Origin: Pseudomonas tructae
GTDB taxonomy: Bacteria; Pseudomonadota; Gammaproteobacteria; Pseudomonadales; Pseudomonadaceae
Direction of reading: 5' to 3'
DNA length: 64,000 nucleotides
Assembly (NCBI RefSeq): GCF_004214895.1
Contig: NZ_CP035952.1
Location: forward strand, 1,622,501 to 1,686,500
Below, piece after piece: positions 44,834-63,128 of this stretch; the stretch's first letter is position 1, and each line of letters opens with the position of its first letter. Position numbers and translations under genes: made by a program. A model generated the notes under the pieces. The model searched no databases. It saw only the letters and a list, made by a program, of their open reading frames with translations, and was not told the origin of the DNA.

Positions 44834-45853
44834 ATGGCGCTAGAACTGGCAACGACCATTATCTACGGTGATGGATCTGTTGAATTTATCAGTCTCAATC
44901 CTGGCCAGGTCCGGGGCAGTATTCTGGGTAACTACCCAATGGGCAACCCGATGCTGGGTGCTGTCATTGGCATCGAAAATGACTACAAAGCGGCGCACGC
45001 CAACCTGGAAATCAACCTGCAGAAGGAACTGGACGTGTTGTCCAGCCAGTTTCCACCGCTGACAGATACTGCAACGATTACCGGACTGCAAAGGCAGGTG
45101 GCGGTGATCAATTCGCTGATGGTTCGCAAGAACAGTGAACTGCAGACCGAGTTGAAGGCGGTCAAAAGCAGCCGCAGCATTGGCAAGCTGATGGCTACTT
45201 ACAACGCAAAACTGCTTAATGAACAGGTCGCTAGTCTGTTGGCGCAGGTAGGCAAACTGGATGCCGAGATCACTCGGCAGCAACAGGCGAATGACGCCAA
45301 GGCCGAAGTTGATTACAAGGCCGCGGTAAAATTCACCGCAGACTTTTACAAAGAGCTGACATCGAAAGTAGGTGGGCAGTTGGCAGCGGAGGCGCAAGCC
45401 TTGGCGGCGGGCGTCCAGGGCAAGCGTATTGGCAATGCCAAGGAGGCCATGGCCGCGTATGAAAAATACAAGGATGCGTTGAACAAAAAATTCAGTGCCA
45501 AGGACCGAGAGGCCATTGCCAAGGCGTTGGACTCGCTGAACAAAGAGCAACTGGCGAAAAACCTGGAACAGTTCAGCAAAGCGTTCGGCTATGTGGGTAA
45601 AGCCATGGATTACGCTGACCTGCTGGTCGAGATCAAAAAAGGCTACGCGACAGGAGAGTGGGGTAGCACCTTTTTGAAGATCGAAACGCTGTTGGCTGGC
45701 AATGCCGCAGGTGCACTGCTTGCGTTTGCGTTCGGTGTGGCGGCGTCGACCGTCATGGGGGCTATTGCATTCGCCATGATCATGGCAGTGACCAGTGCCT
45801 ACATTGATGAGGCGCGGGTCAAGAAGTTCAACGATGCGCTGCTTGCGCTCTGA
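44834..45853 (+). CDS. Pore-forming colicin-like bacteriocin, E1/Ia type (tailocin cargo 1)
   Basis: Predicted bacteriocin that kills by depolarising the inner membrane; 339 residues from ATG 44834 after AAAGGGAG. Residues about 162-339 match the colicin channel domain: AAYEKYKDALNKKFSAKDREAIAKAL, FSKAFGYVGKAMDYADLLVEIKKG, then a hydrophobic hairpin of about 38 residues (286-324) near the C-terminus. The hairpin length suits the E1/Ia group. The N-terminal part is short (about 160 residues, mostly coiled coil), so a full receptor/translocation region like that of colicin Ia or pyocin S5 is not obvious. First gene after the SOS-type promoter; its convergent neighbour encodes the matching immunity type. 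Confidence 0.88.
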   Translation: MALELATTIIYGDGSVEFISLNPGQVRGSILGNYPMGNPMLGAVIGIENDYKAAHANLEINLQKELDVLSSQFPPLTDTATITGLQRQVAVINSLMVRKNSELQTELKAVKSSRSIGKLMATYNAKLLNEQVASLLAQVGKLDAEITRQQQANDAKAEVDYKAAVKFTADFYKELTSKVGGQLAAEAQALAAGVQGKRIGNAKEAMAAYEKYKDALNKKFSAKDREAIAKALDSLNKEQLAKNLEQFSKAFGYVGKAMDYADLLVEIKKGYATGEWGSTFLKIETLLAGNAAGALLAFAFGVAASTVMGAIAFAMIMAVTSAYIDEARVKKFNDALLAL

Positions 45854-45860
45854 AGTGACG

Positions 45861-46193
45861 CTACCGTTTCATCAGTAGATAGACACAGTAGGCGCCACCC
45901 AGCGGGATCGCTGTCGCCATGCACAGCAGATAAAAAAGCGCATAGAGGCCGTTTTTACCCGGGGTCTCGACAAATAGGCCGCGGCTCCAGAATGCCGAAG
46001 AAGAAAACTTTAAAACGCTCTGTTCAATCAACTTTCTCGAGAAGGGGAACAACAACAGGCTCGCACTGGAAAGCAGCAAGTAAATCAGGTTTTCCCGGGT
46101 TGAGAATGAATTGTCGTACCACCAGATTGCTGTGCCTATTGCAAACAGGCTCAGTGCGAGCAAGAGGTTTTTTACATAGTAGTTTTTTTCCAT
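45861..46193 (-). CDS. Colicin E1-type immunity protein
   Basis: Predicted inner-membrane immunity to the adjacent pore former; 110 residues from ATG 46193, which has GGA upstream. A longer frame from 46256 lacks support. Three membrane helices are predicted (about 7-24, 36-51, 83-107). The pattern YYVKNLLL, a central FPFSRKLIEQ and the ending LLCMATAIPLGG resembles colicin E1 immunity protein. Convergent orientation, with seven bases between stops, is the classic layout for pore-forming colicins, allowing expression while the toxin is repressed. Confidence 0.85.
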   Translation of the reverse strand: MEKNYYVKNLLLALSLFAIGTAIWWYDNSFSTRENLIYLLLSSASLLLFPFSRKLIEQSVLKFSSSAFWSRGLFVETPGKNGLYALFYLLCMATAIPLGGAYCVYLLMKR

Positions 46194-46389
46194 AGCGTCC
46201 GCTGTGGTTCGAGATATCTGGGGAGTCATTGCGGCCTGGCGAATCGCTACTGGCATCGCTGGCCTTTGGGCATGTCCTTGCAGACGCGCGTCGACGGATG
46301 AACTTTACCTTTTTTTACCTCGCAGAGGTGATCGATACAAAAACGCCGCTGGCACGTTGCCAAGCGGACTTATCCAAGGAGACAGGACA
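46194..46389 (+). other. Immunity-holin intergenic region
   Basis: No gene seen. It should hold the minus-strand promoter of the immunity gene and the junction where the bacteriocin module was inserted ahead of the holin. A dyad CGCTGGCA / TGCCAAGCG lies near 46347-46366. AAGGAG at 46376 is the holin ribosome binding site. Confidence 0.45.
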
Positions 46390-46737
46390 GTGACGAACGA
46401 ACAACAGACGTTACTGGAAATGCCGATCTGGCTGGTGATCGTCCTGGCGTTGCTGGGCGGCGTATCCGGCGAGATGTGGCGGGCGGACAAGGCCGGTGCC
46501 CGTGGTTGGGCGCTGTTTCGGCGCCTGGTGTTGCGTTCGGGGGCCTGTATGGTCTGCGGCGTGTCGACGGTGATGCTGCTGTACGCCAGCGGCATGTCGA
46601 TCTGGAGCGCCAGCGCTTTTGGCTGCCTGACCGCCATGGCCGGTGCCGATGTCGCCATCGGGCTTTATGAACGCTGGGCGGCACGGCGACTGGGCATCGA
46701 TGCACAAACGTCAAACAGCGACAGCAACAAGGGATGA
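46390..46737 (+). CDS. Holin
   Basis: Membrane protein that triggers lysis and lets the endolysin reach the wall; 115 residues from GTG 46390 (AAGGAG, eight-base spacing). Three hydrophobic segments (about 12-32, 49-72, 74-96) and a charged hydrophilic C-terminus fit a class I-like phage holin. It heads the tailocin genes proper. Confidence 0.82.
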   Translation: MTNEQQTLLEMPIWLVIVLALLGGVSGEMWRADKAGARGWALFRRLVLRSGACMVCGVSTVMLLYASGMSIWSASAFGCLTAMAGADVAIGLYERWAARRLGIDAQTSNSDSNKG

Positions 46738-46798: not shown

Positions 46799-47317
46799 GT
46801 GAACGAACTGACGACGCTACACGAGGCCATCACCGCGACCATCAAGGCCGCGATGCCTCAACTTGAAACCGTTGCCGGCTACGCCACGACGGAGCAGAAC
46901 ACGGCGCTGCCGGCCCTCAATCACGCCATGGTCAGCTTCAGGCCCGGAACCGACCCAGGTGATGGCCGTTGTTGCATCCTGGCCACTTTCGAAGCGGATA
47001 TCCATGTGGATGCCAGTGTTATGCAAGCTCCATTGCAGGCTGCCAGCCTGGCAACACAACTGACCGTACTGTTGCGTCAGCAGTTCTGGCAACTGGACTT
47101 TGTCCAAGCGGCGAACAATGTTCAGGCGTCTGTTGTACAACCCGGCGCAGGCACAACGTTTCCCACAACTTGGCGAGTGCAATGGGAGCAGGCGCTGCTC
47201 CTGGGAGCGGTGCAATGGCCCTGGCCCGATCAGACTGGGCCCCTGGCCTTCGCCTTCAGCCCTGACACCGGTCCGAGATTTGAGGCCGACTACCAATCGC
47301 CGGAGGATCTGCAATGA
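46799..47317 (+). CDS. Tailocin protein of unknown function
   Basis: 172 residues from GTG 46799 (AAGGAG six bases before). No family recognised. It is soluble, with no signal or membrane helix, and the composition is normal for the region. Its place between holin and baseplate spike genes and an ATGA overlap with the spike gene suggest a tail or tail-completion protein; that is inference. Confidence 0.7.
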   Translation: MNELTTLHEAITATIKAAMPQLETVAGYATTEQNTALPALNHAMVSFRPGTDPGDGRCCILATFEADIHVDASVMQAPLQAASLATQLTVLLRQQFWQLDFVQAANNVQASVVQPGAGTTFPTTWRVQWEQALLLGAVQWPWPDQTGPLAFAFSPDTGPRFEADYQSPEDLQ

Positions 47318-47874
47318 GCTACGCCAGTGCCATGCACGACCGTATGCTCGCCGGCCTGGTGATTCCCTGCCGGGTGGTGGCCGTAGACCTTGCCGCCGCC
47401 CGGGTGCGGGTGTCCGACGGCGCCGGCTGGACCAGCGCCTGGTTGCGCTGGCACAGCCAGGCCGCTGGCAAGGCCCGCCACTGGCGGGCACCGAGCCTGG
47501 GTGAGCAGGGCATTGTGCTCAGCCCCAGTGGCGAGCCGGCCCAGGGTACGTTCGTGCCTGGCTTGTACGGCAACGCCGGCGACCAGCCGGACAACCGCGA
47601 GCATGTCGAGGTCTGGCGTTTCGACGATGGTGGCTCGCTGGTATACGACTGGCAGGCCCGCAGTTACAGCATCGAGCTGCCCAGCGGTACCGTCAGCATC
47701 AAGGTCGGCGGTAGCTCGGCAGTAGTGACCGATCAGGCCATCACCGCCAATGCCGCGAGCATTACCCTGACCGGTGAGGTGCAGATCAACGGCCCGCTGC
47801 GGGTAAGCGGCGACATTCTCGGTGGCGCCAAGATCATCGATACCGGTGGCAACACTGCCAACCACAAACACTGA
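47314..47874 (+). CDS. Baseplate assembly protein V (membrane-piercing spike)
   Basis: 186 residues; P2 gpV-like spike at the tip of the tube. An N-terminal OB-like region (VVAVDLAAARVRVSDG), a triple beta-helix-like middle (residues 125-170) and the C-terminal GGNTANHKH with the H-x-H iron-binding tip are all characteristic. It overlaps the previous stop by ATGA. Confidence 0.9.
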   Translation: MSYASAMHDRMLAGLVIPCRVVAVDLAAARVRVSDGAGWTSAWLRWHSQAAGKARHWRAPSLGEQGIVLSPSGEPAQGTFVPGLYGNAGDQPDNREHVEVWRFDDGGSLVYDWQARSYSIELPSGTVSIKVGGSSAVVTDQAITANAASITLTGEVQINGPLRVSGDILGGAKIIDTGGNTANHKH

Positions 47875-47879
47875 ATCCA

Positions 47880-47902
47880 GCCCGCCCACAGCGGGCTTTT
47901 TT
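47880..47902 (+). terminator. Intra-operon terminator-like hairpin 1
   Basis: GCCCGC-CCACA-GCGGGC then TTTTTT, six bases after the spike stop and directly before a CCTGGAG ribosome binding site. Confidence 0.75.
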
Positions 47903-47917
47903 ATTCCTGGAGACATC

Positions 47918-48115
47918 ATGGCCAGCATAAAGAAAAGCACTTCCCAAGCACCCGCCACCCGGGTGTTCTGCGACAGCCGCTACACCTCTCGCGTGCTCAT
48001 CCTGGCGGATGCCCGCCAACTGAGCGTAAGTGCAGGACAAGTCATTGTCGCCGCTGATGACAGCGTCGCCCTAGGCTACCTGCAGGAGCACCCGGACTTC
48101 ACAGCCAAGGAGTAG
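47918..48115 (+). CDS. Small tailocin protein, unknown function
   Basis: 65 residues from ATG 47918 (TGGAG at 47908). Not recognised. It is basic at the N-terminus (MASIKKSTSQ), with a short beta-rich middle and an acidic end. It sits between the spike and gpW genes, four bases before gpW. Confidence 0.75.
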   Translation: MASIKKSTSQAPATRVFCDSRYTSRVLILADARQLSVSAGQVIVAADDSVALGYLQEHPDFTAKE

Positions 48116-48119
48116 GGCG

Positions 48120-48446
48120 ATGATCGGCATGGATCGCCGGAGCGGCCAGCCGTTATCCGGTCTTGCACATTTGCGCCAATCCATCGAAGACATCCTCACC
48201 ACGCCACTGGGTAGCCGGCGCATGCGCCCGGAATACGGCAGCAAGCTGCGCCGCTTTGTCGACCTGCCGGTCAACGAAGGTTGGAAAAGCGCGGTGCAGG
48301 CGGAGGTGGCCCGCGCCCTGGGGCGTTGGGAGCCACGTTTGAAGCTGGAACGGGTCAGGGTAACGGCAGTGGTTGGCGGGCAGATTACCTTGCAGCTCAC
48401 CGGGCAATACCTGAACGCCAGCCAGACCCTGGAGGTGGTGGCATGA
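48120..48446 (+). CDS. Baseplate wedge protein W (gp25-like)
   Basis: 108 residues. The gp25-family pattern is present: a central LTTPLGSRRMRPEYGSKL near residue 30 with the EYG-type motif that joins baseplate and sheath. ATGA overlap with gpJ. Confidence 0.9.
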   Translation: MIGMDRRSGQPLSGLAHLRQSIEDILTTPLGSRRMRPEYGSKLRRFVDLPVNEGWKSAVQAEVARALGRWEPRLKLERVRVTAVVGGQITLQLTGQYLNASQTLEVVA

Positions 48447-49324
48447 GTAGTGTGGATCTATCGGCGTTGCCCGCGCCGCAGGTACTGGAAGACCTCGATT
48501 TCGAGGCCATCTACCAGGCTGACCTGGCGACCTTCCGGTCGCATATGGGCGACAACTGGGACGCTGCAGTCGAAAGCGACCCTGTGAACAAACTGCTGGA
48601 AGTCGGCGCCTACCGCAAGCTGCTCAACCGTGCGCGGGTCAATGATGCCGCCAAGGCACTGTTGCTGGCCTATGCGCAAGGTGCCGACTTGGATCAACTG
48701 GCCGCCAATGTGCAACTGCAGCGGCTGGAGGTGCAGGCTCAAGACACCAGCAGCGTACCGCCCACCCCGCAGGTGCTGGAGGAAGACGACGCGCTGCGCG
48801 AGCGGGTGCAACTGGTGTATGAAGGGCTGACCACGGCCGGCCCGCGCAACAGCTACATCCTGCATGCCCGCAACGCGTCCGGCCAAGTGGCCGATGCGAC
48901 GGCCGAAAGCCCGTCGCCGGCCGAGGTGGTGGTGACCGTGCTGGCGCTCGAAAGCGATGGCGACGCTGGGGTACAACTGTTGGAAACCGTGCGGCGCAAG
49001 CTCAATGACGATGACGTGCGCCCAGTGGGTGATCGCTTGACGGTGCAAGGTGCGCAGATCCTGCGCTACCGCATCGACGCTGTGGTGCACATGAGCGGCA
49101 GCGGCCCGGAGATCGAGGCGACGCTTGCCGAGTGTAAACGCCGCCTGCAAGCCTGGATCAATCCGCGCCGGCGCCTGGGTGTTGAAGTGGCCCGCTCGGG
49201 CGTGGATGCGCAGTTGCATATCAACGGCGTCAGCCGCGTCGACCTGAACAGCTGGACCGACATTCGCCCGACCCCGGCACAAGCGGCCTGGTGTGAAGGG
49301 ATCAGCGTAACGCGGGGGAGCTGA
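48443..49324 (+). CDS. Baseplate protein J
   Basis: 293 residues from ATG 48443 (inside the gpW stop). The P2 gpJ/Mu gp47-like wedge protein has an N-terminal FRSHMGDNWDAAVESDPVNKLLE segment, a conserved ANVQLQRL, and a C-terminal LNSWTDIRPTPAQAAWC. An earlier open frame from 48281 overlaps gpW and is rejected. Confidence 0.92.
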   Translation: MSSVDLSALPAPQVLEDLDFEAIYQADLATFRSHMGDNWDAAVESDPVNKLLEVGAYRKLLNRARVNDAAKALLLAYAQGADLDQLAANVQLQRLEVQAQDTSSVPPTPQVLEEDDALRERVQLVYEGLTTAGPRNSYILHARNASGQVADATAESPSPAEVVVTVLALESDGDAGVQLLETVRRKLNDDDVRPVGDRLTVQGAQILRYRIDAVVHMSGSGPEIEATLAECKRRLQAWINPRRRLGVEVARSGVDAQLHINGVSRVDLNSWTDIRPTPAQAAWCEGISVTRGS

Positions 49325-49325
49325 C

Positions 49326-49934
49326 ATGGACAGTTTGCTTCCGCTCAACAGTACCGATCTTGAACAAGCCATCGAGGCCGCAGGATTTGAAACCACCGAA
49401 GTCCCCCTGCGTGCCCTGTACAACCCCGACACCTGCCCTGCGCACCTGCTGCACCAACTGGCCTGGGCCTGGTCGGTGGACCGCTGGGATGAAACCTGGC
49501 CAGAGGCAATCAAGCGCTCGGTGATCCGCTCGGCGTTCTACGTACATGCACACAAAGGAACCATCAGTGCACTACGAAGGGTGGTGGAGCCGTTCGGTTA
49601 TCTCATTGAGATAGCCGAATGGTTCAACCAGCAGCCCGAGGGCGCGCCGGGAACCTTCGCCTTGAAGATCGGCGTTTCCAACGGCGGGATCAGCGAAGAG
49701 AGCTACCGTGAGCTGTCGGCGTTACTTGATGACGCCCGGCCAGTGAGTCGGCACATGACAGGTTTGGCAATCAGCCTGGAATCGCTTGGCGGCTTCTACG
49801 TGGGCGGCTCGGTGAGCGAGGGCGACGTACTCGACGTATACCCACCTGTACCACGAGAAATTGAGGTCGCCGGCCTGATTGGCCGTGGTGGCCGTGAACA
49901 CACCATTGATATCCTGGACATTGCATATGGTTGA
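49326..49934 (+). CDS. Tail protein I
   Basis: 202 residues; P2 gpI-like baseplate protein with the conserved LLHQLAWAWSVDRWDETW and FYVHAHKGTISALRRVVEPFGY segments. It starts one base after the gpJ stop and overlaps the tail-fibre start. Confidence 0.92.
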   Translation: MDSLLPLNSTDLEQAIEAAGFETTEVPLRALYNPDTCPAHLLHQLAWAWSVDRWDETWPEAIKRSVIRSAFYVHAHKGTISALRRVVEPFGYLIEIAEWFNQQPEGAPGTFALKIGVSNGGISEESYRELSALLDDARPVSRHMTGLAISLESLGGFYVGGSVSEGDVLDVYPPVPREIEVAGLIGRGGREHTIDILDIAYG

Positions 49935-52611
49935 CCAGAACTCCCAGTTTTACGCCATCCTCACCAACGTGGGGGCAGCAAAGCAGGCCAACGCCGATGC
50001 CTTGGGCATCCCTTGGAAAATTACACAAATGGGCGTAGGGGATGCCAACGGCACCGACCCTACACCTAATGCCACTCAAACCGCCCTGCTCGGCGAATGG
50101 CGTCGCGCGCCGCTGAATCAGCTGAAAGTGGATGAAAAGAACAGCGCCATTATCGTTGCCGAACAGGTGATTCCGGCTGACGCGGGGGGGCGCTGGATTC
50201 GTGAAATCGGCCTCTACGATGCGGACGGTGACCTGGTTGCGGTGGCCAACTGTGCGCCAACCTACAAACCGTTGCTGAGCCAAGGTTCGGGTCGTACGCA
50301 AGTAGTACGTATGAGTCTGGTGGTCAGCAGTTCCAGCAGTGTGCAGCTGAAAATTGACCCTAGCGTAGTGTTGGCCAGCCGTGAATGGGTGACAGAGGAG
50401 CTGTCCCGCCAGGACTTCAAACACTCGGTACTGGCCGCGACCACGGCCTCTGTCGAACTGAGCGGCCTGCAGACGGTCGACGGGGTGGCGCTGCAGGTGG
50501 GTAACCGTGTGCTGGTCAAGGACCAAGCCGCTGCAAAGGATAATGGCTTGTACCTGGTTGCTGCCGGGGGGTGGACTCGATGCTCTGATGCGGATAGCAG
50601 TGCCAAGGTAACACCAGGCCTGCTGGTGTTGGTGGAGAAGGGCAACTCCAATGGCGATAGCGCTTGGCAACTGGTGAGCGATGCCCTGATTACCCTCGGT
50701 GTGACCGGACTGGCCTTCGAAATGGCCTTTGGTCGCACCGGTGTGACAGCTGGCATTTATCGTTGCGTTACAGTGGACAAGTATGGCCGCGTGGTTGCTG
50801 CAACCAACCCGACCACAGTGGCAGGCTACGGCCTCACTGATGTGTACACCAAGATTCAGGTGGACAAGGCTCTGGCGGAAAAAGCGCCATTGCTGAGTCC
50901 TGCGTTGGCGGGGATTCCAACGGCGCCGACGGCGGCCCTAGGCAGTGATTCACTTCAGCTTGCCAACACGGCCTTCGTGAATGCCGCGGTCAGCAAGCTG
51001 ATAGCGGGGTCACCCGGTGCGTTGGACACGCTCAAGGAGCTGGCAGATGCGCTGGGTAACGACCCGAATTTTGCTACGACCGTCCTTAATAGCCTGAACA
51101 GCAAGGCGGACAAGGCGAACAATCTTGTGGGCTATGGGATCTTGGATGACGTTCAGATTCGCGGCCGGAATCTGACTGGTGCTTTCACTGTGGAATGCAT
51201 CGATGCGACCGTCAACGGGCAAACCACCGGCATTTTGATTCGGACCAAAATTCCCGCATCGGAAGGCACCATGCCTACGTTGACGATCAAGGGGGCGCTT
51301 AACGGCTATACCAGCCCGTTCGAAGCCCAGCTTTGCTGGTACTACTACCAGAATGCGATATACATGCCGCAGGTGATTGTCAGCGGCGCAAGTGTTGATA
51401 TTGACAACTTGTTCAAGGTTCACCTCAGTCACAGCAATGGATTGGTTAACATTCGCCTGGACTTCGGGTCCAATGCGTACATTCCACGGCTCACTGTTAC
51501 AGCACTCAAGGAGCGCAGTTATGGTGGTGGCTTGGCGATCTATCAAGATTGGACGAGTGAGCCCTACAGTACTGTCATCTCCGGTGAGGTCCAGGCACGG
51601 CGGGTCGCTGTACTAACCACTGCCAATGTCTCGAACGCCGCCTTGGATTTTGCAAGAACAGGTGCGCTTTCGAGCAATGCGGTAACCGGGTTGGGGGACG
51701 CGCTGGCCGACAAAGCACCGCTCGCTCATAGCCACGGCATTTCCCAGGTCAATGGTTTGCTTGATGCGCTGCAGGCCGTGTCAGGTTTGAATCAAGGAGC
51801 AATCGATCAGGACCCTGATAAGGCGACAAGTCAGGTGATTCTCACCAATCACCCCAATGTGCCAATACCGGGTTTTTACTGGCACATCACAACCACCTTT
51901 TTCAGACACATTGCCCCCCATTCGAACCGTTCCCAGATAGCGGTTCAGTATGACGGTGGTAGCGCGATTTTTGTCCGCAGTGTGTACACCGACCTTGGTG
52001 GATGGACGAAGTGGGAGCGCCTGGATAATCAGGTGGCGCCAGGCACCATTGTCTATTTCCCTTCGTATTCCGCGCCTCCTGGCTACCTCAAGGCCAACGG
52101 TGCACAAGTGAACCGAGTGACTTACGCCAAGCTATTCACCGCCATCGGAACGTTCGGCGGAGCAGGTGATGGCAGCACTACTTTTCACTTGCCAGACCTG
52201 CGAGGCGAGTTCATCCGGTGTTACGACGATGCCCGGGGTGTGGATATCAACCGCGCGCTCGGTTCTGTTCAGTTCGGGCAGAACGCTACTCACGCGCACA
52301 CCGGGTATGCCGCATTGAGCGGAGAGCACTACCACGCGATAAGCGGCTTGACCAGCAGCGGGGGCTCGCATAGCCACAACATTTCTATGGGTGGCAACGA
52401 TGTAGCGGGTTATCGGCCGCCTATCACCGCACCGGGCGCGAACGGCGAATGGACGGCCGGGGCAATTTCGGCCGCAGGTGACCACACCCATACCCTAACG
52501 GGTACGGCCGCTAATGCCGGTGGTCACACCCACCAGTTGGTCATCAACACCGACGGCGGCAGTGAGGCCCGGCCCCGCAATATGGCATTGCTCGCCTGCA
52601 TCAAATACTGA
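49927..52611 (+). CDS. Tail fibre protein (gpH-like, receptor binding)
   Basis: 894 residues from MVDQNSQFYAILTN (ATG 49927). Residues 1-165 form the conserved fibre attachment domain. Two repeats of phage-fibre type follow (DGVALQVGNRVLVKDQ, then PTAALGSDSLQLANTAFVN). The middle (about residues 400-700) is variable and somewhat AT-richer, expected for the host-range region. The end has a phage collar domain (FPSYSAPPGYLKANG, LPDLRGEFIR) and five H-x-H motifs (HAH, HYH, HSH, HTH, HTH) for metal at the fibre tip. Confidence 0.92.
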   Translation: MVDQNSQFYAILTNVGAAKQANADALGIPWKITQMGVGDANGTDPTPNATQTALLGEWRRAPLNQLKVDEKNSAIIVAEQVIPADAGGRWIREIGLYDADGDLVAVANCAPTYKPLLSQGSGRTQVVRMSLVVSSSSSVQLKIDPSVVLASREWVTEELSRQDFKHSVLAATTASVELSGLQTVDGVALQVGNRVLVKDQAAAKDNGLYLVAAGGWTRCSDADSSAKVTPGLLVLVEKGNSNGDSAWQLVSDALITLGVTGLAFEMAFGRTGVTAGIYRCVTVDKYGRVVAATNPTTVAGYGLTDVYTKIQVDKALAEKAPLLSPALAGIPTAPTAALGSDSLQLANTAFVNAAVSKLIAGSPGALDTLKELADALGNDPNFATTVLNSLNSKADKANNLVGYGILDDVQIRGRNLTGAFTVECIDATVNGQTTGILIRTKIPASEGTMPTLTIKGALNGYTSPFEAQLCWYYYQNAIYMPQVIVSGASVDIDNLFKVHLSHSNGLVNIRLDFGSNAYIPRLTVTALKERSYGGGLAIYQDWTSEPYSTVISGEVQARRVAVLTTANVSNAALDFARTGALSSNAVTGLGDALADKAPLAHSHGISQVNGLLDALQAVSGLNQGAIDQDPDKATSQVILTNHPNVPIPGFYWHITTTFFRHIAPHSNRSQIAVQYDGGSAIFVRSVYTDLGGWTKWERLDNQVAPGTIVYFPSYSAPPGYLKANGAQVNRVTYAKLFTAIGTFGGAGDGSTTFHLPDLRGEFIRCYDDARGVDINRALGSVQFGQNATHAHTGYAALSGEHYHAISGLTSSGGSHSHNISMGGNDVAGYRPPITAPGANGEWTAGAISAAGDHTHTLTGTAANAGGHTHQLVINTDGGSEARPRNMALLACIKY

Positions 52612-52620
52612 GGACGCTTT

Positions 52621-54985: not shown

Positions 54986-54994
54986 GGAGCTCCC

Positions 54995-55409: not shown

Positions 55410-55437
55410 GCGTATAGCCATGCACAAGGGGGATCAG

Positions 55438-57861
55438 ATGGCGAGCAAATTGGCGCAAACGCGGGTGATTGGTGCCATCGTCAAGCCGACGCTAGGGGTG
55501 GTTTTCAAGGCGGTCCTGGAGCGAATCAACAGATTCAAACAGGCCGATCAGAACACCCTTGGCAAGACCCAGAGGCCGCGCGAGGAACCGCACGGGGCAG
55601 GTTCAGATGAGTTGGCTTCGACTGATGATTCGGCAGCGGGGCAGGATGCTACGGTGCCAACGCAGTCGAACAGCAGCAACCCGTTGGTGGTGAAAATTGC
55701 GGGCCTTGATGTGCTGTCACTGGGCTTGATGAAGTTGGTCTTAGGGTTGAAGTCAGGCGCAGGCCAGGCCGAAGCTCGCCCAGGTGCATCCAGCAAGGCA
55801 CAGCCAGGTCCTGGCCTGGCCCCATCGGGCAGCAATACAACACAAGCAGCAGTGCCGGAAGTTGATTGGCTTTCCCTGGGCGTGATGACAATGGCCCTTG
55901 GCAAGCAAGGGGGCAAGGCTCGCCCAGGGAAAGCGAGCAAGGCCCAAGCAAAGGCGCGTTCAGGCGGGCCTGAGCAACGTTCGGCAGCCAAGAAAGAAAC
56001 CCGACCCACCGGGTCTGGAAGTGCGCACCAGCCACCTGCAAAGCAACCTCCTCGCACTGAAGCATCGCACGACCCGTCAGCGAAACCGGGCGATGCTGCT
56101 GAGCGGTGGGGTAAGCGGCTTGATTATCTGGAAGCGGGATACGATATTTTCAGTACCTATACCAGTGACCAGTCACCTGAAGAAAAGGCCAAGAGTTATG
56201 GTGAAACCCTGGGCGGGCTCGCGGGGGCACGGTTCGGGGGCTGGGTTGGGGGCAGACTCGGTGGGCCGATCGGGGCTGTATTCGGCGAACGGGGTGGCGA
56301 ACGGGGTGGCGAATGGGTCGGTGGTTTGGTGGGCGAAAACTTGGATGCGTATCTGCGCAAACGCTGGATGAGTGACCCGGAGGCATCAGCTCCAGCTTCA
56401 AGGCCTGCGACAGGCCAGGCCGAAGCTCGCCCAGGTGCATCCAGCAAGGCACAGCCAGGTCCTGGCCTGGCCCCATCGGGCAGCAATACAACACAAGCAG
56501 CAGTGCCGGAAGTTGATTGGCTTTCCCTGGGCGCGATGACAATGGCCCTTGGCAAGCAAGGGGGCAAGGCTCGCCCAGGCAAAGCGAGCAAGGCCCAAGC
56601 AAAGGCGCGTTCAGGCGGGCCTGAGCAACGTTCGGCAGCCAAGAAAGAAACCCGACCCACCGGGTCTGGAAGTGCGCACCAGCCACCTGCAAAGCAACCT
56701 CCTCGCACTGAAGCATCGCACGACCCGTCAGCGAAACCGGGCGATGCTGCTGAGCGGTGGGGTAAGCGGCTTGATTATCTGGAAGCGGGATACGATATTT
56801 TCAGTACCTATACCAGTGACCAGTCACCTGAAGAAAAGGCCAAGAGTTATGGTGAAACCCTGGGCGGGCTCGCGGGGGCACGGTTCGGGGGCTGGGTTGG
56901 GGGCAGAGTCGGTGGGCCGATCGGGGCTGTATTCGGCGAACGGGGTGGCGAACGGGGTGGCGAATGGGTCGGTGGTTTGGCGGGCGAAAACTTGGATGCG
57001 TATCTGCGCAAACGCTGGATGAGTGACCCTGAGGCACCAGCGCCAGCTTCAAGGCCTGCTCAGGCGCTGCCACCGATATCCTTGTTGCGCAAGGACAGTG
57101 GCAATGCCTCGGCGGATGGACCGATGCCGGTGCTGACGAGACTGTCATCTGCGCCGTCGTCAATATCAGGGGCCGGCCCTTTGCCAAGTGCATCCTCGGG
57201 GCAGCCAGCGCATGACGGTTTGAGTGGCTGGATGGCGAAGCGCTGGTTTGCTCCCCCAGCAGACACGTGCAAACCATGCCCCAGCGAGCAGAGCAAAACC
57301 ACACCCGCCGTAGGCCAAGCACCGACGAGAGCCGATGAGGACGACAAACTCATGAAGTTTGTCAGCGCATCAGTGACCGGAGCATTGCTTGGAGCGGCGC
57401 CAGGCGTGCCTGTTCTGCTGCCAGGCCGGGAGTTTGGCTCATTGGTGGGGGGGCATCTCGCAGGTACGCTTGACAGCAAACAGGCCGGATCGCTCGTCAC
57501 CCCCGCCCAGGACAGGGGCCAGGCCCCGTCAGCCGCCCGGCAACCCTTGAACTTGCAGCGTTCCAAGGATGACGCTGGCATTGCCGTCGGGCGAATCGGC
57601 AACATTGTTCGTGGGATGGAGCCTGCGGCAGACCAGCCAGGCGTGCTTTCCATGGCACCCAGGATGGAACAGCCTGGCGCCAGCCAACCGCCGCAGCCAG
57701 TTCAGCAAATCACCTTTTCACCCACCATCACGGTTCAGGGCGGGATGAGCGATCCCTTGCAGCTTGCCCAGCAAGTCGGTGCCATTGTCCGGCGGGAGTT
57801 CGAGGATCTGCTGCGTCAATCCACCAGCCGTCAGTTGTACGACGTTCCTCACGTTGCTTAA
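55438..57861 (+). CDS. Putative tail tape-measure protein with internal tandem duplication
   Basis: 807 residues from ATG 55438 (AAGGGGGA just upstream); ATG 55420 adds six residues. Position after gpE/gpE' and the C-terminal QQITFSPTITVQGG...DLLRQSTSRQLYDVPHV tail mark it as the tape measure that fixes tail length and is ejected. Two almost identical blocks of 217 residues lie head to tail (about residues 109-325 and 326-541). Each has an Ala/Pro/Gln-rich linker, then AERWGKRLDYLEAGYDIFS and a Gly-rich LGGLAGARFGGWVGGR membrane-active-looking stretch. Without the duplication the protein would be about 590 residues. The long helices usual for tape measures are scarce here, so the assignment is mainly positional plus the C-terminus. 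Confidence 0.8.
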   Translation: MASKLAQTRVIGAIVKPTLGVVFKAVLERINRFKQADQNTLGKTQRPREEPHGAGSDELASTDDSAAGQDATVPTQSNSSNPLVVKIAGLDVLSLGLMKLVLGLKSGAGQAEARPGASSKAQPGPGLAPSGSNTTQAAVPEVDWLSLGVMTMALGKQGGKARPGKASKAQAKARSGGPEQRSAAKKETRPTGSGSAHQPPAKQPPRTEASHDPSAKPGDAAERWGKRLDYLEAGYDIFSTYTSDQSPEEKAKSYGETLGGLAGARFGGWVGGRLGGPIGAVFGERGGERGGEWVGGLVGENLDAYLRKRWMSDPEASAPASRPATGQAEARPGASSKAQPGPGLAPSGSNTTQAAVPEVDWLSLGAMTMALGKQGGKARPGKASKAQAKARSGGPEQRSAAKKETRPTGSGSAHQPPAKQPPRTEASHDPSAKPGDAAERWGKRLDYLEAGYDIFSTYTSDQSPEEKAKSYGETLGGLAGARFGGWVGGRVGGPIGAVFGERGGERGGEWVGGLAGENLDAYLRKRWMSDPEAPAPASRPAQALPPISLLRKDSGNASADGPMPVLTRLSSAPSSISGAGPLPSASSGQPAHDGLSGWMAKRWFAPPADTCKPCPSEQSKTTPAVGQAPTRADEDDKLMKFVSASVTGALLGAAPGVPVLLPGREFGSLVGGHLAGTLDSKQAGSLVTPAQDRGQAPSAARQPLNLQRSKDDAGIAVGRIGNIVRGMEPAADQPGVLSMAPRMEQPGASQPPQPVQQITFSPTITVQGGMSDPLQLAQQVGAIVRREFEDLLRQSTSRQLYDVPHVA
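55760..57059 (+). repeat. 651-bp tandem direct repeat inside the tape-measure gene
   Basis: Copy 1 is 55760-56410 and copy 2 is 56411-57059, period 651 bases (217 codons, in frame). I see only about eight single-base differences (for example GTG/GCG in LGVMTM vs LGAMTM, GACTC/GAGTC, GTG/GCG in GLVGEN vs GLAGEN), so the duplication is recent. Confidence 0.95.
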
Positions 57862-57870
57862 GGAGGTGCC

Positions 57871-58716
57871 ATGACCTACATGGATCAGTTGCAATCAGGG
57901 CTTGGTGCCCTGGTGGCGGCGGGCGAGGCGGGGCGGCGCAGTGCTGATGAAATGCTGGCGCCGGTCAAGGATGCCGCCGCCGAGTTCATCGGTGCCGCCG
58001 CCGAACTTGAGGCGTTGCCCTTTGTCGGGCCTGCCATCGGTGCCAAGCTGCAGCGCAGCTTGCGGGCGATCAACAAGGCCCAGTCCAGCGTCGATCAAGC
58101 GCTGGCGAAATATGATCGGGCCGTGGCGGTGGTGGCGCAGGTACGTGATGGCGTCGCCACGGTGAAGGCCCAGGTTGGCCGGGTCAGTGCCGCGATCAAT
58201 CGGTTGGCGGGCAAGATCAGTCCGTCCCTGGCCAATATCCTGCCGACCAGCAGCTTCGCCCCCGAAGCGACGCCGGCGGCAGAAGCGGTCAAGCCGTTTC
58301 CGCATTTGCTGATTCTGCAACCGCTCAAAGCCCAGTCACCGGCCTATTACTTCAACCTCGACACGGCAGCGTTCGATGAGCTGCGTCGGCAGACCAGCTT
58401 TCGCTGGGCAGGCCAGGAGCGTCTGACCCGCAGCACGGCGCAACAGGCCGTGGGCCTGGGTGATGAGAAGATCAGCATCAAGGGCGCGATTTTCCCCGGT
58501 TTCAAGGGCGGGCTTGGCCAGTTGCAGGCGTTGCGCAGCATCGGTCGGCAACTGCAACCATTGACCCTGACCAGTGGTTACGGCGAGGTGTTGGGCACCT
58601 GGTGCCTGACCGGCGTTGATGAAGACCAGAGCAATCTGCTGGCCGGGGGCATTCCGCGAAAACAAGGTTTCTCACTGGAGTTTGTGAGCTATGGCGACGA
58701 CCTGCAGAACCGCTGA
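57871..58716 (+). CDS. Tail protein U with N-terminal helical extension
   Basis: 281 residues after a strong AAGGAGG. The C-terminal ~130 residues match P2 gpU (FDELRRQTSFRWAGQERL, DEKISIKGAIFPGFKGG, LGTWCLTGVDEDQS, PRKQGFSLEF), a protein that caps or completes the tail. The N-terminal ~150 residues are Ala-rich helices (residues 10-115), absent from the short phage gpU. Confidence 0.88.
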   Translation: MTYMDQLQSGLGALVAAGEAGRRSADEMLAPVKDAAAEFIGAAAELEALPFVGPAIGAKLQRSLRAINKAQSSVDQALAKYDRAVAVVAQVRDGVATVKAQVGRVSAAINRLAGKISPSLANILPTSSFAPEATPAAEAVKPFPHLLILQPLKAQSPAYYFNLDTAAFDELRRQTSFRWAGQERLTRSTAQQAVGLGDEKISIKGAIFPGFKGGLGQLQALRSIGRQLQPLTLTSGYGEVLGTWCLTGVDEDQSNLLAGGIPRKQGFSLEFVSYGDDLQNR

Positions 58717-58897
58717 GGGTGACGTGCTCGACACCTTGTGTCAGCACTACTACGGCCACCTGAGCGGCACCGTCGAGGCCGTGTTGGCAGCTAATCAAGG
58801 CCTGGCCGAGCAACCGCAACCGTTTCACGCCGGGGTATTGATCCTGCTGCCGGAGCTGCCGGCAGCGAGCGATGCCACGGTGCAGCTGTGGGATTGA
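58691..58897 (+). CDS. Tail protein X
   Basis: 68 residues, P2 gpX-like LysM-type small tail protein: EGDVLDTLCQHYYGHLSGTVEAVLAANQGLAEQ then LPELP and the terminal VQLWD. It overlaps the gpU end by 26 bases in another frame. Confidence 0.9.
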   Translation: MATTCRTAEGDVLDTLCQHYYGHLSGTVEAVLAANQGLAEQPQPFHAGVLILLPELPAASDATVQLWD

Positions 58898-58921
58898 TGC
58901 TTGTCGTTAACTGTGATGATC

Positions 58922-58950
58922 AGGCCCCGCCGTGTGCGGGGCCTTTCTTT
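58922..58950 (+). terminator. Intra-operon terminator-like hairpin 3
   Basis: AGGCCCCGC-CGTGT-GCGGGGCCT then TTCTTTT, leading straight into CTGGAG, the gpD ribosome binding site. Confidence 0.78.
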
Positions 58951-58965
58951 TCTGGAGCCTGAACC

Positions 58966-60018
58966 ATGCAGCCAGTGTTTCGCCTTGTTGCCGATGGCAA
59001 GGACATTACCGAACTGATCAACGATCGCTTGCTGTCATTGCGTACCTCGGACAAGCCTGGAATGGAGTCCGACGAGTTCGAACTGCGCATTGACGATCGC
59101 GACGGCGCTGTGACCCTGCCTGCCAGGGGGGCGCTGATCGAAGTGCACCTGGGCTACGCCGGCCAGGTCTTGACGCGCCTGGGGCGCTACACCGTGGATG
59201 AGATTGAATTGTCCGGTCCGCCCGACAGTATCGTCATCCGTGGCAAGGCCAGCGACATGCGTGGTACTGGCAAGAGTATCCGCAGCGGTAGCTGGGAGGA
59301 CGTGCCGTTGCAGCAGATCGTCAGGGACATTGCCGCGCGCAACGGCTGGCAACCGCTCTGCCCGGTGAGCACACGGGTGCCACGGGTCGACCAGTTAAAC
59401 GAGTCGGATTTCAACTTCATTACCCGCCTGGCCAGGCAGTACGACTGCACGGCCAAGATCGGCGACGGCAAGTTGCTGGTGCTGTCGCGTCAGGCCGGGC
59501 GCAGCGCCAGTGGGCAGGCCCTGGGGGTCGTTACCCTCAACCGCAGCGATGTGAGCCGCTGGCAGATTCGTCTGGCGGACAAAGGCACGCACAAGGCTGT
59601 GCAAACCCGACATCAGGACCCCAAAAGCGGCGGGCTGAAGATTATCGACCTGGCCAATGACGACTCGCCGGCCGGGCTGCAGCCGGTACACAGCGACCGT
59701 CATCTCTACCCCAACAAAGCTGCTGCCGAGCAGGCTGCCAAGGCGCGCCTGGCGGCGTTCAACCGCAGTACTGCCAGCGTGCGACTGGAAATGGCCGGAC
59801 GCACCGATCTGTTTGCCGAGCGCCTGATTCTTGCCCAGGGCTTCAAGGACGGGCTGGACGGCGAGTACCTGATCGAGTCGGTCGAGCACAGCTTCAGCGC
59901 CAATGGCTGGGGAACCACGGTCGACTGCAACGGTGGCAGCCAAGGCAAAGCCAAAGCCAAGGGCAAGAAAGCCAAAAGCAGGCCGGGTCTGAAGACGATT
60001 CAGTTGCACCCCATTTGA
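58966..60018 (+). CDS. Late control/tail hub protein D
   Basis: 350 residues. P2 gpD/Mu gp44/VgrG-like hub: N-terminal RLVADGKDITELINDRLLSL, ESDEFELRIDD, the middle LNESDFNFITRLARQYDCTAKIGDGKLLVL and the YLIESVEHSFSANGWGTTVDCNG end. Connects spike and tube in the baseplate. Has a Lys-rich tail (residues 325-345). Confidence 0.93.
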   Translation: MQPVFRLVADGKDITELINDRLLSLRTSDKPGMESDEFELRIDDRDGAVTLPARGALIEVHLGYAGQVLTRLGRYTVDEIELSGPPDSIVIRGKASDMRGTGKSIRSGSWEDVPLQQIVRDIAARNGWQPLCPVSTRVPRVDQLNESDFNFITRLARQYDCTAKIGDGKLLVLSRQAGRSASGQALGVVTLNRSDVSRWQIRLADKGTHKAVQTRHQDPKSGGLKIIDLANDDSPAGLQPVHSDRHLYPNKAAAEQAAKARLAAFNRSTASVRLEMAGRTDLFAERLILAQGFKDGLDGEYLIESVEHSFSANGWGTTVDCNGGSQGKAKAKGKKAKSRPGLKTIQLHPI

Positions 60019-60042: not shown

Positions 60043-60588
60043 ATGACGCTGGAGCAACTTGCTGCCGTGTTCCCCAACGCCCGCCTGAATGCGGGCGTTT
60101 TTCTACCTGCCTTGAACCTGGCCATGGCCCGCTGGGACATCGACACCCCACGGCGCATGGCCGCCTTCCTCGCCCAGATCGGCCACGAGTCCGGTCAGTT
60201 GCGCTACGTCAAGGAGCTGGGCAATGACCGCTACCTGGCACGTTACGACACCGGCAGCCTGGCCTTGCGTTTGGGCAACACCCCCGAAGCGGACGGTGAT
60301 GGCCAGCTGTATTGCGGCCGCGGCCTGATCCAGGTCACCGGGCGCAACAACTACCGGGCTTGCAGCATGGCCCTGTTCGCTGACGAGCGTTTGCTCAAGC
60401 AGCCACAACTGCTCGAACAACCGCAATGGGCGGCCGAGTCGGCGGCCTGGTTCTGGCACTCGCGCGGCCTCAACCAACTGGCCGACCTGGGCGAGTTCAA
60501 CCGCATCACCCGGCATATCAACGGCGGGCTCAACGGCCTTGAAGACCGCCTGAAACTCTGGGCGCGGGCCCGCGAGGTGCTGTGTTGA
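60043..60588 (+). CDS. Endolysin, GH19 chitinase-like lysozyme
   Basis: 181 residues. Degrades peptidoglycan to release particles. The active-site Glu49 lies in AQIGHESGQL, and YCGRGLIQVTGRNNY is the GH19-type substrate loop. No signal peptide, so it relies on the holin. Codons 12-20 contain a terminator-like hairpin (60076-60102). It overlaps Rz. Confidence 0.92.
   Translation: MTLEQLAAVFPNARLNAGVFLPALNLAMARWDIDTPRRMAAFLAQIGHESGQLRYVKELGNDRYLARYDTGSLALRLGNTPEADGDGQLYCGRGLIQVTGRNNYRACSMALFADERLLKQPQLLEQPQWAAESAAWFWHSRGLNQLADLGEFNRITRHINGGLNGLEDRLKLWARAREVLC
60076..60102 (+). terminator. Terminator-like hairpin inside the endolysin gene start
   Basis: AACGCCCGC-CTGAAT-GCGGGCGTT then TTTTT within the coding region. 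It could limit lysin expression; function not shown. Confidence 0.5.
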
Positions 60589-61085
60589 GCCGACTGCAAT
60601 GGGGCGCTGTTGCATTGCTGATGTTGCTGGCCTGTGCACTGACCTGGCAGGTCCAGGGTTGGCGCATGGGGCACAAACTTGCGGAGCAAGCGCAACAGCA
60701 CGGACAGGAGTGGCAGGCACAGGCCGAAGCCGCTGCCGCGCAACTGGTCGCCGAACGCCTGCAACGCCAAGGAATGGCGCAGCGGCTGGCGGTCAGTGAG
60801 CAACGACATTATCAGGAGCTACTCGATGCCCAACAGACTCAGGCACGCCTGCGTGATCGCCTGGCTACTGCTGACGTGCGGCTGTCAGTCCTGGTCGAGC
60901 GCGACGCCGCCGGTTGTGCCGGCCTGCCTGCCGCCCCCGGCACCGGCGGCCTGGATCATGGCCCCGTACGCGCCCGACTTGACCCGGCGCATGCTCGACG
61001 AATTGTCGCCATCACCGACGACGGCGACCGTGGACTGATCGCCTTGCGCGCGTGCCAGGCCTACGTGCGCGGGCTGATGCCCTGA
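60582..61085 (+). CDS. Rz-like inner-membrane spanin
   Basis: 167 residues from GTG 60582 (or TTG 60585, overlapping the endolysin stop). One N-terminal membrane helix (residues 8-24) and a Gln/Ala-rich periplasmic coiled coil (residues 30-110) match i-spanins that fuse inner and outer membranes during lysis. Rz1 is nested in the +1 frame. Confidence 0.85.
   Translation: MLSRLQWGAVALLMLLACALTWQVQGWRMGHKLAEQAQQHGQEWQAQAEAAAAQLVAERLQRQGMAQRLAVSEQRHYQELLDAQQTQARLRDRLATADVRLSVLVERDAAGCAGLPAAPGTGGLDHGPVRARLDPAHARRIVAITDDGDRGLIALRACQAYVRGLMP
60826..61038 (+). CDS. Rz1-like outer-membrane spanin lipoprotein (nested in Rz)
   Basis: 70 residues from ATG 60826 with AGGAG eight bases upstream, wholly inside Rz in another frame. 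The lipoprotein signal VIAWLLLTCGC gives a lipid-modified Cys (probably residue 20), followed by the proline-rich TPPVVPACLPPPAPAA expected of Rz1. Confidence 0.85.
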   Translation: MPNRLRHACVIAWLLLTCGCQSWSSATPPVVPACLPPPAPAAWIMAPYAPDLTRRMLDELSPSPTTATVD

Positions 61086-61192
61086 GCGTCGGGGCTGTGC
61101 AAAAGACTTTCTGTTTTCAACCAACCATATGAGGACGGCCGGCATGGCTGTGTCCTCGCTATCAATTGACTCAACAAAAAAGGACTTTAAAC

Positions 61193-62491
61193 ATGGGTGA
61201 AAAAAATATCATCGTCGACCGTGGCATTCCCCCAGGCGGCGGTAGCGGTGCTTCCGCTGGCAATGTCTTCGGCGGCTTCTGGGGCAGCGGCAACATCGGT
61301 AGCGTGATCGGTTCGGTGACGGTGTCGATCGATGGCGTCAGCAGGCCCACGGGCCCTGCGTTCAATGCGGCAATCGTGTTCAACTCCACGATCGTCGAAT
61401 CCGTGCTGTCGGGTTACGGTTGGCCGAGTATCGATGCCTACTACGACCTGGGCATGAGTGTCTGGGGCATTCTGCCTTATCAGATCCTCGAGGTGCGTGA
61501 CGAGGTTCACGGCAGCTTCGTGCGCAAGGAGCGCGCCCTGCCGGCAGAGCTCGATGCCGAACAACGCGCCGCCGAAGCCGCTGCCGGCAGCAATGCGGCC
61601 CTGAGCCCGGGGCAACGCCTGGAGCGCTCTATCGGTATCGTCAAAGCGATGATGGCCAAGCGCGACGAGCTGATCAAATTCAATCGTCTGCGCCTGTCCA
61701 CCTCGCCGGGCAGCGAGCTGATCGAGCGCAACATCGACAAAATGGTCGCCGAGTTGAAAAAACTCGACGACGAGCAGATCCCGCCTGCTATCGATCAGGT
61801 CCTGGATGTCATGAGCGCAGGCTTGAGCCTGCACGTGGACCTGACTGCCAACGCGATGCTCCAGGAGAAACTCGACAAGCTGCAGGCCCAAGCCCGGGAA
61901 GTGGCGGAGCAGGAGGCGTACAAAAGCGCAGTTAGCTTCGCCAGTGATGTCGGCAAGGAGGTCGCCAGCCGTTTCGGAGCGCAGATGGCCAAGGCTGCCG
62001 ACGAGCTGAAGAAGGACATCACCGGCAAGACGGTCAAGAGCTACGACCAGGCCATGCAGGCGTTTGAAAAGCTTGCGCGCAACCCGGGCTTCAAGATGAA
62101 CCAGAAGGACACTGCCGCCATCGCTCAGGCCCTCAATGCCCTGGATGTGGCAACCTATGCCGACAACGCCATGCGGTTGGGCAAGGCGTTTGGTGTAACG
62201 GGCAAGGCTGTGCAGGCAACGACCCTGGCACAGAAGGCGGCCAGTGGTTTCAGCACCGGTGAATGGAAGCCGTTCTTTCTGGAGCTGGAAAGCATTGCCG
62301 TGGGCGCTCTGGTAGGCGCTGCCGCCGGCGCCGTACTGGGTGCCGGCCTGGCGCTGGTGCTGGCACCTGGTTTGGCCGCAGGTGCGGGTATCATTGCCTC
62401 CGGGGTGATTCTGGCTGCCGTGTCGTCCTACATCGACGCCCAGGCAATGGAGTCGTTCAACCAGATGGTGCTCAATGCAGTAGCATCCTGA
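61193..62491 (+). CDS. Pore-forming colicin-like bacteriocin, A type (tailocin cargo 2)
   Basis: 432 residues from ATG 61193 (AAAAAGGAC, eight-base spacing). Gly/Ser-rich N-terminus (IPPGGGSGASAGNVFGGFWG), a middle helical part (residues 125-250), then a channel domain (about 240-432): MQAFEKLARNPGFKMNQKDTAAIAQAL, AMRLGKAFGVTGKAVQATTLAQKA, GEWKPFFLELES and a long hydrophobic hairpin of about 45 residues (366-410). The longer hairpin suits the colicin A/B/N group, unlike the first bacteriocin. It sits 107 bases after the spanins with the same direction, so it would be made and released with the tailocin. Confidence 0.88.
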   Translation: MGEKNIIVDRGIPPGGGSGASAGNVFGGFWGSGNIGSVIGSVTVSIDGVSRPTGPAFNAAIVFNSTIVESVLSGYGWPSIDAYYDLGMSVWGILPYQILEVRDEVHGSFVRKERALPAELDAEQRAAEAAAGSNAALSPGQRLERSIGIVKAMMAKRDELIKFNRLRLSTSPGSELIERNIDKMVAELKKLDDEQIPPAIDQVLDVMSAGLSLHVDLTANAMLQEKLDKLQAQAREVAEQEAYKSAVSFASDVGKEVASRFGAQMAKAADELKKDITGKTVKSYDQAMQAFEKLARNPGFKMNQKDTAAIAQALNALDVATYADNAMRLGKAFGVTGKAVQATTLAQKAASGFSTGEWKPFFLELESIAVGALVGAAAGAVLGAGLALVLAPGLAAGAGIIASGVILAAVSSYIDAQAMESFNQMVLNAVAS

Positions 62492-62540
62492 AAAGATGGG
62501 TCAGGGGGAGCCGCCGTGCTGCTGCCCCTGGCCCGGCTCA

Positions 62541-63128
62541 ATGGACGCAGTGAATATGAATGTGATGAAAGCCGACCCGCAACAGGGGGCCTACCTGTAT
62601 ATCCCGTACCTGTTGATTGGTGTGAGCCTGGCGCCGGTCATCCTGCTTGCCTGGTTGATCCCGGCCGTGGCGGATCAGGGCTTCTACGCGGAACTTGAGC
62701 GGTTTCTCGATGACTGCCTGTTCGGTCGGGTGGGCGTCTGGTCATCGATGTTTCCCCTGACCGCCAAGGCGATCGGCAACTACATTGCCGTTGCCGCGCC
62801 GTTTTTTTCCCTGTGGATCACTGTCTGCATCATGCGGCGATCGCTGCTGCGACCGGGGCCTCCGGCGCAGGTGGCGTTGGGCCGATATGCATTGATTGCC
62901 GCAGGCTGTGTATTGCTGGATGCTTTTCTGATCTACCAGAATTATTTTACCTTCACCGACTTTGCCGCTCACTCTAGAAGGTTTCGCTTCTTTGGCCTGA
63001 GCGTGGTGTTCTTTCCGTTTATCGCGATGCTGTCGCTGTTGGCGTTCTACGCGATGACATTTTTCAGTTACAACTTGCTGCTGCGCTTTCCTCGCGAGGT
63101 ATTGGCGCAGCGCAGGCAGCGGCATTGA
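62541..63128 (+). CDS. Putative immunity protein for bacteriocin 2 (four membrane helices)
   Basis: 195 residues if started at ATG 62541; ATGs at 62556 and 62565, and at 62496 upstream, are alternatives and none has a good ribosome site. Four hydrophobic segments (about 19-42, 76-98, 113-133, 150-178) fit the A-type colicin immunity topology. No confident sequence family match; the call rests on topology and position right after the pore former. Same strand as the toxin, which is unusual for this class. Confidence 0.68.
   Translation: MDAVNMNVMKADPQQGAYLYIPYLLIGVSLAPVILLAWLIPAVADQGFYAELERFLDDCLFGRVGVWSSMFPLTAKAIGNYIAVAAPFFSLWITVCIMRRSLLRPGPPAQVALGRYALIAAGCVLLDAFLIYQNYFTFTDFAAHSRRFRFFGLSVVFFPFIAMLSLLAFYAMTFFSYNLLLRFPREVLAQRRQRH

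Follow-up and report, generated by a model that had tools for sequence, protein, structure and literature searches.

Two predicted pore-forming bacteriocins as cargo in separate slots of a Pseudomonas R-type tailocin cluster

Can one tailocin cluster house two bacteriocins of different types and, if so, would they be made and released in the same event? This question is raised by the mutS-cinA region of the Pseudomonas tructae chromosome (5.69 Mb, single contig), analysed here within a stretch of 64,000 nucleotides (positions 1,622,501-1,686,500), referred to as the window. An original prediction, made from the letters alone, had placed two different pore-forming bacteriocins in this region, one at each end of a tailocin locus and each with an immunity protein of its own type. 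In the whole genome the colicin pore domain profile (PF01024, E <= 0.001) finds two matches only, both in this locus and with the positions and lengths predicted: a protein of 339 residues at the 5' end (toxin 1; 8.5e-53) and one of 432 residues at the 3' end (toxin 2; 5.1e-27). Very probably, the locus is an R-type tailocin with two separate bacteriocin cassettes in two slots, which would be jointly induced by the SOS response and released through the steps set out below.

Judged by its matches, toxin 1 is a pore former of the pyocin S5/colicin Ia (E1) type. Among solved structures pyocin S5 comes first (8e-69, toxin residues 47-337), followed by colicins Ib, Ia and E1 (9.1e-32 or better) and, far lower, by S4, N, A and B (1.7e-10 or weaker); in a tree of pore domains, toxin 1 falls with pyocin S5 and colicin Ib inside a clade supported at 100/100, called the E1-type clade in what follows. 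The alignment to pyocin S5 starts at S5 residue 203, inside the second helical domain, and toxin 1 therefore lacks the first, transporter-binding domain of S5. Since domain 2 alone is matched of the two kTHB domains of that protein, toxin 1 is not a pyocin S5, even sharing its pore type and one domain. Toxin residues 47-146 and S5 residues 203-303 align over 99 positions, 36 of them identical; domain 2 is 39% identical among pyocins S2, SD3 and S5, all of which bind the common polysaccharide antigen (PMC7064778). The AlphaFold model of toxin 1 (mean predicted local distance difference test score, pLDDT, 60.5) is confident mainly at residues 21-150, the domain-2-like bundle. The immunity gene, on the strand opposite to toxin 1, encodes a protein that matches the Colicin E1 immunity family (PF03526, 7.6e-9) and has three hydropathy peaks in a 17-residue window at a threshold of 1.2, and one at a stricter setting. 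As it is placed antisense downstream of the presumed tailocin promoter and before the holin gene, it would be crossed by an induced transcript.

Toxin 2 is best read as a pore former of the colicin N (ColN, A) type, a call that is weaker than the E1 call for toxin 1. Its hydrophobic hairpin counts 45 residues, against 45, 46 and 46 in colicins N, B and S4, and that of toxin 1 counts 37, against 33 in colicin Ib and 37 in pyocin S5, in agreement with the short 5' and longer 3' hairpins originally predicted, by a crude motif count that gave no result or an evidently false one in 5 of 32 rows. The immunity gene lies on the same strand and its product has four hydropathy peaks at both settings, and the predicted distinction between a three-helix and a four-helix immunity protein is recovered at the threshold of 1.2 (one and four peaks at the stricter one). 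The profile search of the two immunity proteins bears out the 5' one, and the 3' one matches no Pfam family at E up to 1. Several observations weaken the ColN assignment of toxin 2. A profile of its family scores colicin N (3.9e-35, the best) and pyocin S5 (1.2e-33) nearly equally, and a single-sequence search puts pyocin S5 first. In the pore-domain tree it is not joined to colicins N, B and S4, which sit on a long branch, and it is drawn nearer to the E1-type clade (83/89) under midpoint rooting, in a tree whose deep forks are weak and whose references are long-branched. Moreover, the hairpin count is 41 in eight further Pseudomonas toxins of the ColN side, intermediate between the two classes, and the AlphaFold model of toxin 2 (mean pLDDT 45.7) is of low quality beyond the bundle.

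Does the agreement between toxin type and immunity type extend beyond this locus? Among 398 Pseudomonas species genomes (this one included; G numbers below), 28 have a PF01024 match, and the pore-domain tree comprises 25 other survey toxins, both window toxins and five references. The E1-type clade holds 15 of these survey toxins, all of them with an E1-type immunity gene on the opposite strand, and the ten outside it all have an immunity gene of the toxin 2 type beside them, on the same strand. This rule relating the orientation of the immunity gene to the pore type has already been published (PMC5358913). Profiles, hairpin length, pore-domain tree and comparison with relatives support the predicted match of toxin and immunity type at both ends of the locus. 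The tree leaves out three short fragments (G019, G201 and G302), each with one immunity type on the usual strand of that type; these are truncated or split pore-former genes beside an immunity gene and might be immunity-only relics. Typing by whole-protein score was rejected, as it misassigned six ColN-side toxins (G347, G036, G047, G312, G159 and G019) because they share the N-terminal segment of toxin 1, and as it gave the G302 fragment no score; the pore-only tree was used instead.

Six ColN-side toxins from other genomes (that of G019 being broken) align with 34-40 of residues 1-42 of toxin 1, and a seventh toxin of that side with the same segment (G105) was found by tblastn. Between toxin 1 and a homologue from P. 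fluorescens, the first 67 residues are all identical (67/67), and 142 of 178 are so in the pore domain. For its part, toxin 2 has over residues 1-260 a 31% relative in P. bharatica CSV86, fused to a pesticin-type lysozyme domain (PF16754, 2.6e-37). Based on this sharing across pore types and on the fusion, the N-terminal parts look like delivery modules that are swapped between killing domains. The N terminus of toxin 2 is TonB-box-like (EKNIIVDRGIPP) and nearly invariant across eight aligned proteins. Both toxins appear to be built of an N-terminal segment, one pyocin S5 domain-2-like bundle and the pore, with AlphaFold models that are weak for both and were used for the helix-bundle parts alone, and they may provide a natural test of the receptor and transporter choice by short single-bundle pyocins. 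Just downstream of the P. bharatica fusion gene (locus L088, 9998-11365), a small gene on the opposite strand could be an immunity gene.

Are the toxin genes part of the tailocin? Flank alignments to cargo-free sites indicate that both cassettes are inserted cargo and not tailocin core. Around the 5' cassette, the left flank aligns to P. wadenswilerensis and G089 as far as 44806 and the right flank from 46336 on, with an overlap of ~31 bp at those cargo-free sites; in the alignment to G007 these limits are 44772 and 46376. The repressor-holin distance is 472 bp in P. wadenswilerensis, where the 5' slot is empty, versus 2,032 bp in the window. At the 3' end, all three cargo-free relatives compared by blastn (G007, G089 and G077) align on both sides of the toxin 2 cassette, which takes up the entire interval between the spanin gene and cinA; on the right the alignment starts again at 63103, 63130 or 63142, a position that differs between relatives. 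The GC content is 53.7% and 48.0% in the 5' cassette versus 61.8% in the tail genes; that of toxin 2 is not low (61.5%) and that of its immunity gene slightly so (56.5%). This contrast suggests that the toxin 2 cassette arrived earlier than the 5' one, in agreement with the presence of toxin 2 in the same slot of P. rubra, P. wadenswilerensis and P. fontis (three of the four named loci). Full-length toxin 1 is found in one of those four genomes, P. rubra (99%); its absence from P. fontis comes from a sequence search, the holin end of that cluster lying outside the DNA inspected. The MutS adjoining the same cluster is 99% identical in P. rubra and 98% in P. wadenswilerensis.

Both toxins together in one mutS-cinA tailocin were found in two of the 398 genomes, this one and P. 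rubra ID1025 (G096). A 45% relative of toxin 1 is encoded in the mutS-cinA cluster of G074; there, however, it follows the holin gene, and the adjoining tail genes are not matched by the window's proteins. In 25 of the 28 PF01024 genomes, no toxin was seen within ~20 kb of genes like those of this tailocin (weak tailocin-gene hits lie 16-20 kb from the toxin in G209), as judged by tblastn with the window's own proteins, which other tailocin types may escape, as may a tailocin adjoining the toxins on short contigs in G136, G122, G159, G201, G302, G105 and G047. The P. fluorescens homologue, 76% identical to toxin 1, is probably in the same 5' slot, as an apparent translation of the conserved slot sequence precedes it in a longer frame (P0003).

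What else do the two slots hold? For the 5' slot, the positions of repressor and holin genes were taken from 199 genomes, giving at least 111 repressor-holin pairs (repressor match in 126 genomes, with one row each for 124 used and G069, G117 and second copies left out; holin rows resembling the main copy, among the matches listed). The space exceeds 900 bp in 39 of these at least 111 pairs, this one included. Besides this genome, G096 and G074, none of the 36 other occupied slots holds a PF01024 match, and the idea of a general bacteriocin slot at the 5' end was abandoned. Seven proteins from six of them were compared to Pfam (two tail-fibre assembly proteins, a DUF642 protein, a transposase and three unmatched), and the remaining slots were inspected by eye. 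The 3' slot is rarely filled: the lysozyme-cinA space is larger than 2 kb in three of 53 pairs picked by eye (this genome, G096 and G061), with a lysozyme match in 61 of 99 genomes. In G061 it holds, between spanin and cinA (L134, 1519-2361), a gene for a 280-residue LlpA-like B-lectin protein (PF01453, 9.3e-10), so that two unrelated bacteriocin families have used this slot. Com-like zinc-finger genes, which precede some tailocin cargo genes (PMC6240691), were not found beside either toxin by their cysteine motif. Among 42 loci, made up of 36 filled and two empty 5' slots and four 3'-slot stretches, the motif occurs in eight, all of them filled 5' slots (frames in L104, L109, L116, L118, L119, L124, L125 and L126), some beside exported-looking proteins.

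Table 1. Features of the mutS-cinA region, in positions of the window
Feature	Position	Strand	Remarks
mutS	40886..43498	-	Open reading frame; left boundary of the locus
CI/PrtR-like repressor with S24 peptidase domain	43590..44360	+	HTH_3 6.6e-11, Peptidase_S24 1.6e-18, PHROG repressor 1.3e-48
Terminator-like hairpin after repressor gene	44381..44398	+	Conserved in aligned relatives
Presumed tailocin promoter/operator	44473..44524	+	TTGACT 44493-44498, CATAAT 44514-44519, TGCAT/ATGCA repeats
5' cargo insert, ~1.5 kb	44807..46335		Flank alignment to cargo-free sites
Toxin 1, 339 aa	44834..45853	+	Pyocin S5/colicin Ia (E1)-type pore former, by its matches
5' immunity protein, 110 aa from inner ATG	45861..46193	-	Open reading frame may start at 46256
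Holin	46390..46737	+	PF16085 8.1e-56
Contractile tail genes (baseplate, fibre, fibre assembly, sheath, tube, tape measure, tail proteins)	46799..60018	+	PHROGs
GH19-type endolysin	60043..60588	+	GH19 lysozyme profile 1.2e-6 and PHROG
Rz-like spanin	60582..61085	+	PHROG Rz-like spanin 1.1e-48
3' cargo insert, ~2 kb	61087..63102		blastn against cargo-free G007, G089, G077
Toxin 2, 432 aa	61193..62491	+	Pore former, with colicin N (A) type as the best reading
3' immunity protein, 195 aa	62541..63128	+	Same strand as toxin 2
cinA	63149..63625	+	Right boundary; recA next, from 63729

By its gene content, the cluster between mutS and cinA/recA is a contractile (R-type) tailocin, with sheath, tube, baseplate, fibre and lysis genes, and holin, endolysin and spanin stand where the original prediction had placed them (Table 1). 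The large open reading frames scanned in it, a subset of all, are tail and lysis genes. The gene at 54476-54985 bears the label "head closure" of PHROG 55, and we take it to encode the tube from its position next to the sheath gene. Among 10 proteins scanned, nothing exceeded the NCBIfam cut-offs, and Rfam gave no match at gathering scores in the 43.4-64.0 kb part of the window. The presumed tape-measure gene contains a 300-nt direct repeat (55760-56059 and 56411-56710, 99% identical, 651 nt apart), a duplication that could alter tail length.

How would such a cluster be switched on? The repressor looks SOS-cleavable: the Ala-Gly, Ser and Lys of the self-cleaving type can be seen by eye. The conserved stretch that follows its gene is presumed to act as the tailocin promoter/operator. 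Across six aligned loci, TTGACT is found in all six and CATAAT in four, with a spacing of 15 bp, and the region contains an 11-nt inverted repeat (91%). The core of the region occurs once in the window; a consensus promoter scan does not call the presumed promoter. Two sets of observations count against the reading favoured below. Firstly, three coding-strand intergenic terminator-like hairpins lie within the cluster (47879-47897, 53216-53239 and 58922-58944), each shortly 5' of a gene start and matched by equivalents at the corresponding positions in P. rubra and P. wadenswilerensis. Found by a scan that overall gave 16 sites versus 12.4 expected, these conserved hairpins speak against the simplest one-transcript picture, and they may set the tail-protein ratio or mark separate transcription units. 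Secondly, no LexA box (<=1 mismatch) lies at the presumed promoter, the nearest one (44877, one mismatch) being inside the toxin 1 gene, and the 18 boxes in the window versus 22 expected are not above chance, so SOS control would depend on the repressor alone. The sole exact LexA match (45911) is inside the 5' immunity gene and was taken as chance. No coding-strand terminator was called at 60900-64000, from the 3' immunity gene through cinA and recA, and transcripts of the last segment could thus read into cinA and recA, the latter being itself an SOS gene.

In the reading favoured here, slot one, between repressor and holin, would have picked up the E1-type pore former with its antisense immunity gene, and slot two, between spanin and cinA, the ColN-type pore former with its sense immunity gene. 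Upon DNA damage, RecA would trigger self-cleavage of the repressor and the promoter at ~44.49-44.52 kb would fire, after which toxin 1, tail, lysis proteins and toxin 2 would be made. Holin, endolysin and spanin would then burst the producer and free the tailocin and both toxins. Each toxin might dock on its target via its S5 domain-2-like bundle (that of S5 binds the common polysaccharide antigen), have its N terminus threaded to TonB via some outer-membrane transporter and form an inner-membrane pore; the two immunity proteins would protect sister cells. Joint SOS induction and joint release of toxins and tailocin are plausible. Tailocins are induced by DNA damage in the laboratory and are apparently released via lysis cassettes (PMC7815802).

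Could the toxins instead be mere passengers at a recombination hot spot, with promoters of their own and release by other means? Unlikely as this is, it is the most probable alternative. The unrelated genes held by the 5' slot in many Pseudomonas make insertion there not bacteriocin-specific, and both the internal hairpins and the 25 genomes without a toxin seen in a tailocin of this kind are in its favour. It is opposed by the position of both genes: toxin 1 stands between the conserved promoter region and the holin gene and toxin 2 starts 107 bp after the spanin gene, in neither case with a promoter called by the consensus-based scan (which missed the presumed tailocin promoter too), and this fits transcription with the cluster. 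More doubtful than the passenger explanation is that the locus forms a coordinated three-weapon device and not a chance collection. Docking on lipopolysaccharide would be shared, N-terminal entry and immunity classes would differ, and the toxin 1 transcript, antisense through its own immunity gene, could lower immunity only in lysis-committed cells; if so, a target would have to beat three unrelated defences simultaneously, and both toxins would dock on the receptor class of the tailocin fibres. That one or both toxins are carried by or attached to the tailocin particle, not acting alone, draws on physical gene linkage only and is very improbable, given that both have import parts of their own (the TonB-box-like N terminus of toxin 2, the S5 domain-2-like bundle in each), that relatives of both pore types are found away from tailocins of this kind and that the N-terminal relative of toxin 2 is joined to a lysozyme domain in P. 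bharatica. Least credible of all, an action on the producer as extra lysis factors would suit genes adjoining those of holin and spanin, but each toxin has a likely cognate membrane immunity gene, and colicin pore domains work from the periplasmic side, so import would be needed.

How does this R-type tailocin with two bacteriocin cassettes compare with known systems? Toxin 1 matches pyocin S5 (PDB 6thk, PMC7064778) from domain 2 to the C terminus and likewise has a three-helix immunity protein, but in place of the FptA-binding kTHB domain 1 it has ~46 other residues. Toxin 2 shares with colicin N and the Pseudomonas ColN-type bacteriocins (PmnH, "mono" ColN; PMC5358913) the pore domain and a four-helix immunity protein encoded on the same strand, and its hairpin is as long as that of colicin N; PmnH differs in having an extra colicin M domain, and Pfam finds none in toxin 2. 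Bacteriocin cargo is also found in other tailocins, such as the colicin-M-like pseuM-pmiA between mutS and cinA (PMC5277000) and llpA (PMC6240691), which belong to other toxin families and are single cargo where seen, versus two here. The R-tailocin of P. protegens CHA0 is alike in its mutS-cinA/recA position, PrtR-like regulator, lysis genes and release by lysis, and the part of its description compared (PMC7815802) mentions no pore-forming cargo. The closest case is P. putida PA14H7, which carries single-toxin pore formers of the ColN and ColIa/PyoS5 types "as cargo of its tailocin" (Ghequire 2017, PMC5358913, crediting the 2015 review The tailocin tale). As here, one bacteriocin of each type lies in one tailocin cluster, and the combination, implied to be new by the original prediction, is thus already published; that account gives no slot positions or N-terminal parts, and the comparison is by description. 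The literature compared did not show the use of two separate slots together with cargo-free relatives, the one-bundle build of both toxins or the exchange of the N-terminal segment of toxin 1 between pore types, some of which may exist in further papers. Release of bacteriocins via prophage or tailocin lysis genes ("piggybacking") has already been proposed (PMC6240691, PMC5821083), and this locus, in which colicin-type toxins stand intact beside tailocin lysis genes and for which cargo-free relatives exist, makes it directly testable in one strain.

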